A stretch of DNA of 64,000 nucleotides from Diprion similis. Taxonomy: Eukaryota > Arthropoda > Insecta > Hymenoptera > Diprionidae. Positions within the stretch are counted from its first letter, which is position 1. The number at the start of each line of letters is the position of its first letter. Shown piece by piece: positions 40,708 through 47,016 of this stretch. Position numbers and translations under genes: made by a program. Below the pieces are notes generated by a model. That model was not told the origin of the DNA and searched no databases. It saw only the letters and a list, made by a program, of their open reading frames with translations. The stretch covers positions 5,481,001 through 5,545,000 of the forward strand of contig NC_060109.1 in assembly GCF_021155765.1 (NCBI RefSeq). The letters are read 5' to 3'.

Positions 40708-40805
40708 TATGCCAGTAGATATAATGTAAGAGTTCTGGATTCTAGTTCCAATTTCCGCCACCAGTCCCCTATTCCTACAGGCCGGGGCGACTGCAGCGCC
40801 ACTAA

Positions 40806-40830
40806 GGGGGGGGGGGGGGGGGGGGGGGGT
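40806..40830 (+). repeat. poly-G tract in the Polinton derivative arm
   Basis: Roughly 24 consecutive G; the mirrored site in the right arm (about 46889-46918) is C with T interruptions, so the two arms have diverged here by slippage. Confidence 0.9.
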
Positions 40831-41502
40831 GTTATGTCGGATCTTGTTCGACGGCGGGAGGCTGTAAGTTAGATAAGGCTAGACCACTTGAAAAAATTCC
40901 TGCAAATGCAGCCTTTCAGCTAATGCCCATAATAAACGCAGTGGGATAGGGACACAAGGAGGGAATTAAAACCATGCCAGAAAATTCGGAAATGTGCTTA
41001 TGCATCATTATGAACCATCGCATAAACCTTATGCACAAATTTACTAAGCCGTTCAGTCTTGGCTAATCGTCGCAGAGTCGGATTCTCACCATCTGGGTGC
41101 AATAATTACTGACTGCTGCTACGTTTTCTCAAAAGGCTTTTCCCAAACAACCCTTTTTGTCAGGTTCCAAAAACATAAATCACCCGGTCAAGAGTCTAGG
41201 GATCAGAATTCATCTCTATGCCGCTCGAAGCCACTCTTTGCCAGCCGATTCTCCCACTGTGTATCTTCAAAGTTTTGTTTCACTGATAGGGGAGGGATGG
41301 GCGTGTGCAGGCTCAGCCGTGGTTGACCACAATTTTTATCATGGAAGCTGCTGCTGCAGAACGTGGAGACCCCCCCCCCCCCCTCGCCCTTTCCCTCACG
41401 ATCCGTCGGCATAAGGACAGTACATCCATTGCAGACTCATCAGTCTTACACAACACGTGAAAGTGAAAAGTTCAGAATATCATCGTCACCAACGTCAAAG
41501 TC

Positions 41503-42070
41503 ATGGCTGCCGAAGCATGCATGGGACTCGTCGAGCAGATGGGGGAGGCGTACAATTTGCTGCGCGAGCAAACTCCCGGAGAAGGAAGTCACGATGTCTT
41601 CAATCATTGGATCGGTATTGGAGTGGCAAATATACAAGGTTTGCAAGATATTCTCCAGCAGCCGAGAATGAGTGTGGGGACGAAACAGCAAATTCAACAT
41701 AAGATCTCCCTCATACAATCCTGAGTGGCAAAGATCCAGCAGCAACAGCGGCAGCATGGCCTGGTGACAGGCGGCAATATTGGCAGTACAGCGGGTGTAC
41801 AGTGGGACGTACATATTGACATGCGAATTTGAACACGTCAAGCATGACGAGGTCGCTGCGGAAGTTAAAAGCTTCAATACATCCAACGTGACGATCCTCA
41901 TCGAGTGATATAGACGGCTGGTTCGCGGACACAAACAACAAACTGCTCGTAAAGATCAAAGATTTCGAACAACGCGATTTCGGCTGGAGTATGATCGAGA
42001 TTTCAAATATTGCCGTAAATATCAACCGATACCAGCCTCTCGCTGCAGGAGCTTCAACATTCGTTACGTT
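41503..42070 (+). pseudogene. polymerase B N-terminal fragment, left arm
   Basis: ATG 41503 (MAAEACMGLVEQMGEAYNLL) matches the right-arm copy. A TGA interrupts at 41722-41724, an internal deletion near 41808 removes about 50 codons, and a frameshift follows near 41905. The distal part reads DGWFADTNNKLLVKIKDFEQ and SNIAVNINRYQPLAAG, collinear with the corresponding part of the pPolB at 8109-11644 (DIHGWFEENVKQ..., LTVNINKYVPLQGG). It stops where the Penelope-like element begins. Confidence 0.8.
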
Positions 42071-44940: not shown

Positions 44941-45741
44941 GTGTGTTTCACTGATTTCAAGGTTTAGTAAGCTCAGATGGAATTTACGCAAAATACGTTT
45001 AAATTTATGTTTCTAAAAAGATGAATTAATGCATAATCTGCTTGAACTCAGTTTTGAGAACTTTAAATGTACGGGTAGGAGGTTTTTTTCTTACATATAA
45101 GCAAAAAAATCCTTATATTCTTCAGTGTAACAAGTTTTTTTGATGCGGACATCCATCTTCTGAGAAGCTTGGTGGTGGATGCACCGTAGATCAACGAAAC
45201 GTTATGGAGAAACCCCATTCTTCTCCGACGCTATTCCCAATGATAATGCAGAAAGTAGTATTGACCTCCTTATGATATGTTGAATAGAATCTTGGATATG
45301 TAGGTCAATCATTAACACAACCAGTTGATGTCAACGTTTCGACTCTGTGATTGACTCTAGATGAATTAATAAATTTTCGGTCCTGAAGATGACTCAAATC
45401 ACAGAGTCGAAACGTTGACATCAACTGGTTGTGTTAATGATTGACTTACATATCCAAGATTCTATTCAACATATCATAAGGAGGTCAAGACTACTTTCTG
45501 CATAACGTAACGAATGTTGAAGCTCCTGCAGCGAGAGGCTGGTATCGGTTGATATTTACGGCAATATTTGAAATCTCGATCATACTCCAGCCGAAATCGC
45601 GTTGTTCGAAATCTTTGATCTTTACGAGCAGTTTGTTGTTTGTGTCCGCGAACCAGCCGTCTATATCACTCGATGAGGATCGTCACGTTGGATGTATTGA
45701 AGCTTTTAACTTCCGCAGCGACCTCGTCATGCTTGACGTGT

Positions 45742-46221
45742 TCAAATTCGCATGTCAATATCATGTTGACCTTCACATTCTGACATTCGCTGTGCCAGTT
45801 TCAATTTTCCGACGATGATCTGCCGCGCATCGCTCAGAAAGACCTCCAAATCCTCATGGCCAAGATTGATGACAATGCCGGTGCGAATCCGGTTAGCAAA
45901 AGCGCTGTCAACATCGTCCCACTGTACACCCGCTGTACTGCCAATATTGCCGCCTGTCATCAGGCCATGCTGCCGCTGTTGCTGCTGGATCTTTGCCACC
46001 CAGGATTGTATGAGGGAGATCTTATGTTGAATTTGCTGTTTCGTCCCCACACTCATTCTCGGCTGCTGGAGAATATCTTGCAAAACTTGTATATTTGCCA
46101 CTCCAATACCGATCCAATGATTGAAGACATCGTGACTTCCTTCTCCGGGAGTTTGCTCGCGCAGCAAATTGTACGCCTCCCCCATCTGTTCGACGAGTCC
46201 CATGCATGCTTCGGCAGCCAT
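45742..46221 (-). pseudogene. polymerase B N-terminal fragment, right arm
   Basis: ATG 46221 opens a 159-aa frame (MAAEACMGLVEQMGEAYNLL), with WDDVDSAFANRIRTGIVIN and HEDLEVFLSDARQIIVGKLK aligning to pPolB of the complete Polinton (WEDLETAFQSRIRTGAVIN..., HKDLGVFLKDAKHLVVARLK). It is the fuller of the two arm copies. After the stop at 45742 the sequence continues polymerase-like to 45504, then meets the Penelope-like element. Only the first quarter of the gene is present. Confidence 0.85.
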
Positions 46222-47016
46222 GACTTTGACGTTGGTGACGATGATATTCTGAACTTTTCACTTTCACGTGTTGTGTAAGACTGATGAGTCTGCAATGGAT
46301 GTACTGTCCTTATGCCGACGGATCGTGAGGGAAAGGGGGAGGGGGGGGGGTCTCCACGTTCTGCAGCAGCAGCTTCCATGATAAAAATTGTGGTCAACCA
46401 CGGCTGAGCCTGCACACGCCCATCCCTCCCCTATCAGTGAAAAAAAACTTTGAAGATACACAGTGGGAGAATCGGCTGGCAAAGAGTGGCTTCGAGCGGC
46501 ATAGAGATAAATTCTGATCCCTAGACTCTTGACCGGGTGATTTATGTTTTTGGGACCTGACAAAAAGGGTTGTTTGGGAAAAGCTTTTTGAGAAAACGTA
46601 GCAGCAGTCAGTAATTATTGCACCCAGATGGTGAGAATCCGACTCTGCGACGATTAGCCAAGACTGAACGGCTTAGTAAATTTGTGCATAAGGTTTTTGC
46701 GATGGTTCATAATGATGCATAAGCACATTTCCGAATATTCTGGCATGGTTTTAATTTCCTCCTTGTGTCCCTATCCCACTGCGTTTATTATCGGCATTAG
46801 CTGAAAGGCTGCATTTGCAGGAATTTTTTCAAGTGGTCTAGCGTTATCTAACTTAGAGCCTCCCGCCGTCGAACAAGATCCGACATAACCCCCCCTCCCC
46901 CCTCCCCCCCTCCCCCCCTAGTGGCGCTGCAGTCGCCCCGGCCTGTAGGAATAGGGGGACTGGTGGCGGAAATTGGAACTAGAATCCAGAACTCTTGTAT
47001 CATATCTACTTATGCC

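Follow-up and report, generated by a model that had tools for sequence, protein, structure and literature searches.

Protein-primed replicons of the adenovirus kind form snap-back, or copy-back, defective genomes, and the replication of Polintons (Mavericks, polintoviruses) has, to our knowledge, so far been deduced from gene content. No description of palindromic Polinton derivatives was found among the top matches of our searches in the open-access PMC literature. Here we analyse such a derivative in a window of 64,000 nucleotides from the insect Diprion similis (contig NC_060109.1, referred to as C5:5481001-5545000), which belongs to an assembly of 269 Mb and 60 contigs (GCF_021155765.1) from which all copy counts below are taken. 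The element and its relatives have in common with Polintons the terminus, the 6-bp target duplication, a family B DNA polymerase (PolB, DNA_pol_B_2) and the tail of the integrase. We consider, with a probability of about 0.66, that they are palindromic, PolB-only Polinton derivatives whose founder arose by snap-back synthesis and was integrated in trans, and whose arms were later re-copied from each other.

The mirror-image insert of the window

The insert (40714-47010, 6.3 kb) consists of two inverted arms with TATGCC on each side, and is a shortened member of a palindromic Polinton-derived lineage that keeps mainly polB. Its outer features are as follows, d being the distance in bp from the element terminus.

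40708..40713, no strand: left copy of the 6-bp target duplication TATGCC
40714..42070, + strand: left arm with terminus, terminal inverted repeat (TIR) and 5' part of polB, lacking 150 bp of the right arm at d1096
45504..47010, - strand: right arm of 1507 bp, with the same content as the left arm
45742..46221, - strand: open stretch of 159 aa, N-terminal part of the polB frame
47011..47016, no strand: right copy of TATGCC

The preliminary description had claimed two near-identical inverse arms interrupted at the same nucleotide, together with a perfect TATGCC outside them, and all of this was confirmed. The inverted blocks 40714-42215 and 45359-47010 are 94-100% identical per block, and 26 substitutions separate the arms over ~1.5 kb, besides the 150-bp gap at d1096 of the left arm, with 12 substitutions at d1-500 against 10 beyond (outside a G-run, p=0.035). 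Both arms end in ...TTCGTTACG and then pass into the same TT+ATGCAGAAAG end of a Penelope-like element, so that the mirror symmetry reaches 145 bp past the arms. Residues 1-144 of the 159-aa stretch match residues 13-156 of the 1273-codon polB frame of another copy (P3 below) at 92%.

The flanks of the insert are members of a repeat family. When they were fused with one TATGCC, 40 matches were obtained (the best 40 of 44 candidates scored), two being the window's own halves, and 25 of the 40 span the junction, starting at q8 or earlier and reaching q225 or further, with 83-95% identity. All four unfilled paralogous sites that were read have TATGCT or TATGCG once and lack the insert. Since the 6-mer stands there only once, the window unit entered as an insertion that duplicated 6 bp; chance or an assembly fold is a very unlikely origin of this copy, and an assembly artefact was rejected for it on account of the unfilled sites.

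A dispersed family with a common centre

A search with the outermost 887 bp of the arm gave 41 matches (205 candidates, 40 scored), many of them in inverted pairs: both arms of the window copy, 38 further places with 85-92% identity, and one match of 45 bp. A terminus pattern was found at 116 places and at none in the reversed control. In total 18 terminus-bounded copies were located, copy numbers being lower bounds, namely the window copy, ten pairs read at both ends (P1-P10), and seven taken from the terminus list and arm matches (C13:11714k, C5:6571k, C12:920k, C4:6820k, C13:10680k, C14:170k and C3:17054k, the last being the only one of the seven whose ends were compared). Among P1-P10 the shortest inverted repeat is that of P2 (1.9 kb) and the longest reaches at least 5.7 kb, with arm-to-arm identities of 92.9% (P7) to 99.96% (P1) and polB in both arms in most of them, while copies match each other collinearly at 89-98%. 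In the longer members the arm runs from the terminus through the TIR, polB reading inward, ~150-bp repeats and the last ~80 integrase codons to ~1 kb of other sequence; proteins were placed directly only in pieces of P2, P3, P4 and P8, and in the other copies by DNA collinearity. Arm length across the lineage is 1.4 to about 6.7 kb, and the most compact complete-looking members (C13:11714k, P5) span 13.4-13.5 kb.

Eight of the 18 copies have exact 6-bp duplications, all different: TATGCC (window), AATGCG (P3), CACGTT (P4), CGCATA (P6), GCAGTA (C13:11714k), TTTCTT (C12:920k), TGTGTC (C4:6820k) and GATGGG (C3:17054k). A further five (P1, P5, P9, C5:6571k and C13:10680k) share five of the six bases, and P10 has an exact GAATTG duplication only at its outer edges, that is, when an outer tip remnant is counted. 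The search for head-to-head arms elsewhere with different duplications, which had been proposed as a check, thus succeeded, and the lineage appears to have spread through the genome in mirror-image form.

The centre of these elements is shared as well. Arm matches to L057, a piece of ordinary Polinton DNA with the integrase gene, stop at its position 1097-1099 in all eight elements that match there (P2, P3, P4, P5, P6, P8, P10 and C3:17054k); pieces of P1, P7 and P9 gave no match at this breakpoint. Of the 13 pieces that were tested, ten have a central ~47-bp inverted repeat with an asymmetric spacer of ~65 bp (C3:17060k, from which the probe came, P2 in part, P3, P4, P5, P9, C13:10686k, C13:10893k, C13:10946k and C2:936k); it was not found in P8, C14:1070k and C11:12483k. 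P2, P3, P5 and C3 entered this test without selection for that spacing, and the spacer occurs in both orientations, as expected for a symmetric insert. In P5-like members the arm meets itself at the 65-bp spacer and no single-copy middle is left. In view of the common breakpoint and the common spacer, one founder palindrome was probably amplified.

PolB shows the signature of purifying selection. When polB pieces of nine palindromes, P2 being outside the set, were compared pairwise (NG86), all 36 pairs gave dN/dS values of 0.18-0.49, at dS of 0.03-0.23, and comparison with an ordinary copy (170-264 codons) gives 0.16-0.20 in the six of nine pairs that could be computed. Single uninterrupted frames are present in P1 (1270 codons) and P3 (1273 codons), the other arms listed being broken to differing degrees; the P3 protein (L029) matches the DNA_pol_B_2 profile at 1.1e-30, and the C-terminal 772 aa of polB gave no sequence match among solved structures. 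If the founder was single, this selection would have acted in the palindromic state. As to other Polinton genes, the integrase core was not found in the arm parts examined, which hold only the last ~80 codons (the middles of P6, P7 and P9 were unread), and the packaging ATPase was not found in the pieces of P2, P3, P4 and P8, the only ones searched for it. For the capsid, no MCP match lies between the termini of 17 of the 18 copies, the search having returned 127 matches with 126 of 284 candidates scored; the remaining copy, C3:17054k, contains one at C3:17067k in an unread stretch, probably in nested Polinton DNA.

Could such elements be no more than a Polinton family with unusually long TIRs that suffered internal deletions? 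The arms do begin with the family's own terminus and TIR, and deletions are common (P2, P3, P4, C3 and C4): most of polB is lost in one arm of P2 and its end in one arm of P3, and in P2, P3, P4 and C3 the inner part of one arm is gone up to the centre. The assembly does hold a fuller relative with a similar tip, an ordinary Polinton on C9. It is among seven terminus pairs lying 13.8-14.8 kb apart with an MCP match near one end, and is the one that was read at both ends. Its TIR is 517 bp long (91% identical), so that arms of 1.4 to ~6.7 kb are unlikely to be the normal TIR of this group. On this one ordinary TIR measured the long-TIR explanation was rejected, and we regard it as improbable, given also that the P5-like "TIR" runs into its own mirror copy at the spacer and that a single MCP match, probably nested, falls within the 18 copies.

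The first 25 bp of the C9 element are 96% identical to the palindrome tips, and its CGCTTC duplication is exact, as are those of the ordinary Polintons checked on C2 and C13, while the one on C12 keeps five of six bases. The ordinary C13 piece encodes an integrase with an rve core, and a chromo match fell below the cut-off. Ordinary Polintons with the same 25-bp tip could have served as helpers that integrated the palindromes in trans; for the integration by an intact relative that had been suggested earlier, a candidate relative is now at hand. Three loci were rejected as ordinary parents carrying segment C, the innermost part of the arm: C3:17054k, which has an MCP match between its termini, retains the palindrome centre and has one arm deleted from d3530, and C14:1070k (72%) and C11:12483k (92-94%) are relatives without the spacer.

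Polintons are very numerous in this assembly, their MCP matches being crowded in limited stretches of several contigs. The window itself holds, at 1108-11122, what is left of an ordinary Polinton that belongs to a different family, with a DJR capsid protein (PF21738), an A32-like ATPase, and what appear, by homology to L057, to be pieces of integrase and polB, this polB being ~42-68% identical, by stretch, to that of the palindromes. Elsewhere in the window, 57867-61916 encodes what we take to be a Copia-like polyprotein of 1349 aa, and among 28298-29732, 15102-17344 and 51277-51741 there are a DDE_Tnp_4 transposase (profile match) and, presumably, a pogo/Tigger-like transposase and a mariner-like fragment.

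Origin of the founder and re-copying of the arms

We propose that a nascent Polinton strand that had copied the polB end turned back on itself at the ~47-bp inverted repeat and was then extended, with itself as template, as far as the terminus; the 65 bp would be the loop. The resulting palindrome, with two functional ends and its own PolB, would have been integrated in trans by an ordinary Polinton sharing its 25-bp tip. Later, one arm would have served as template for the other in replicating hairpins and, in the case of P10 and probably P8, within the chromosome. The arms found are nearly identical and stand around a short, asymmetric loop, and the shared short-loop centre, the terminus-complete arms and the kept PolB fit a snap-back founder. 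From the type of PolB we infer protein priming, and a terminal protein, in these elements. More tentatively, the palindrome may be a self-complementary replicon whose strand folds as one hairpin, so that each cycle rewrites one arm, with its own PolB under selection and the integrase, perhaps also the capsid, borrowed from intact relatives; it would then be an inherited palindromic parasite of Polintons resembling defective interfering genomes.

Arms do resemble each other more than they resemble other copies: in a tree of d480-1500, both arms of a copy group together as sisters in ten of the 11 copies, P7 being the exception. P7 (L037/L038) has mosaic arms, with four differences in a block of ~1 kb and 1.6-12% per 250 bp elsewhere, and is a chimera or carries a conversion tract, and is not one clean element. 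With P7 dropped for this reason and d86-250 omitted for the G-run, the tips (d1-85, 850 bp over ten copies) account for 21 arm-to-arm substitutions and the ~42,850 bp of the interior for 55. The tip excess is significant singly in P3, P4, P5 and P9, and not in the window copy (p=0.1), P2 (p=0.1), P1, P6, P8 and P10. The tip base at d15 is G on the left and A on the right in P4, P5 and P9, and P2 and P3 share G/A at d10; tip differences may have been inherited through transposition.

Several observations weigh against our reading. The tip-to-interior divergence ratio of 19 is unlike a single clean snap-back just before insertion, and in several copies the arm tips are older than the interiors. 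In P10 the left GAATTG is followed by a 45-bp TIR remnant, 154 bp of inverted right host flank and then the full arm, so that in at least this copy one arm was re-copied from the other after insertion. In P8 (L081/L082, C12:1633300-1651600) the inverted symmetry extends ~1.6 kb into both flanks, with 1,380 bp at 100%, reflecting a recent inverted duplication or a misassembly; unless it is the latter, arm re-copying after insertion probably took place here too. Inverted host flank in P8 and P10, together with the diverged tips, indicates that arms were also remade after insertion. Four of the 18 copies (P2, P7, P8 and C14:170k) have no duplication at their termini, the ends of C3:17054k share only 301 bp (98%), and in C4:6820k the right terminus lies ~300 bp beyond segment C, with one arm nearly gone. 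Six of the ten spacer-bearing pieces had been fetched for close inverted segment C matches and are a non-independent sample, and with several founders some of the selection on polB could be older than the palindromic state or have acted apart from it. In the ordinary Polinton pieces that were read, neither the spacer nor the innermost ~1 kb of the arm has a match, so that the loop is at most a putative continuation of Polinton sequence. Of the snap-back mobile genome first proposed for this locus, then, the mobile palindromic derivative is supported more strongly than had been claimed, by a lineage with many duplications and a shared centre, and the snap-back origin of its founder exceeds what these data demonstrate.

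The main rival for the founder is chromosomal: ordinary Polintons would have inserted first, and the palindromes would have been made in place by fold-back break repair (a break, intrastrand annealing at an inverted repeat, outward copying) or by arm-to-arm conversion. The inverted host flanks of P10 and P8, the older tips and the mosaic P7 with its near-identical block all speak for it, and yeast is known to form foldback inversions at breaks (PMC10622511, PMC7467729). For P8 and P10 this chromosomal origin is to be preferred. For the family as a whole we judge it unlikely: the centre and the integrase breakpoint are common to independent insertions, segment C (40 of 42 candidates scored) has no match inside any of the seven ordinary Polintons of 13.8-14.8 kb picked from the terminus list, and in 13 of the 18 copies at least five of six bases are duplicated right at the termini.

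The centre of the window insert calls for a separate account, as it is occupied by a retroelement.

42071..45503, - strand: Penelope-like retroelement (RVT_1, 5.8e-11)
43054..44991, - strand: reverse transcriptase open reading frame (ORF), 645 aa
42804..43148, - strand: candidate 115-aa stretch in a separate frame, with what we take, by eye, to be a GIY-YIG-like motif
42071..42177, + strand: terminal repeat unit (pLTR-like), direct copy 1
45246..45352, + strand: terminal repeat unit, direct copy 2
45397..45503, - strand: terminal repeat unit, inverted copy, closing the palindrome on the right

The 107-bp end unit is thus present in two direct copies and one inverted copy, and other copies of the element exist in the genome. 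A Penelope insert stands exactly where both arms stop in the window copy and in P10 (L019, C14:727k), which might suggest that the retroelement itself caused the window palindrome, by an insertion with inverted ends followed by fold-back, apart from any Polinton lineage. We consider this the least probable of the explanations weighed here. Loci at C12:1627k and C14:3815k show that the element has inverted pairs of its own elsewhere, and these have neither inverted flanks nor a Polinton arm within 0.9-1.5 kb; moreover, palindromes without Penelope matches are commoner than those with them. The element may account for the cut at d 1507, not for the family. A preference of the element for hairpin tips, or fold-back through its repeats, is possible. 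Under our proposal it would have come to lie where the arms of the window copy were cut at d 1507, and fold-back through its inverted end repeats would have produced arm ends at the same base. That the two arm-Penelope junctions are mirror copies, including the extra TT, favours the copying of one junction over two independent ones, and the window copy may have been remade in the chromosome or during replication.

Comparison with known systems

If our reading is true, a lineage that spread as a palindrome and whose PolB is under selection would testify in nature to the copying of Polinton DNA end to end from its termini, and the notion of copy-back defective genomes would extend to an inherited element of host genomes. 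Arm-to-arm divergence provides an internal clock for each copy, and overruns into the flank reveal arm conversion. Assemblies and repeat libraries may conceal such palindromes as "long TIRs" or misjoins.

Compared with described Polintons, the palindromes differ in carrying polB twice, in arms of up to ~6.7 kb around the 65-bp spacer, and in that the parts examined yielded no integrase core, capsid or ATPase. Adenovirus-like snap-back genomes resemble the palindromes in having one end twice, head to head, around a small loop, with helper dependence inferred; the palindromes are in contrast inherited and amplified in a host genome, with dS of up to 0.23 and a PolB under selection. Foldback inversions and origin-dependent inverted-repeat amplification (ODIRA) share the inverted duplication and the short spacer, but they are chromosomal and non-mobile (PMC10622511, PMC7467729, PMC4689423), and alone they do not account for fresh insertions flanked by 6-bp duplications. 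The centre of the window insert, with its two direct repeats, one inverted repeat and reverse transcriptase ORF, has the layout of the Penelope-like elements described in Adineta vaga, whose pLTRs are both direct and inverted (PMC3846280), whereas the window's element is cargo inside a Polinton palindrome. Teratorn (PMC6431247) is likewise a large virus-derived element with long inverted repeats, but it joins a herpesvirus to piggyBac and has 18-bp TIRs, unlike the PolB palindromes described here.
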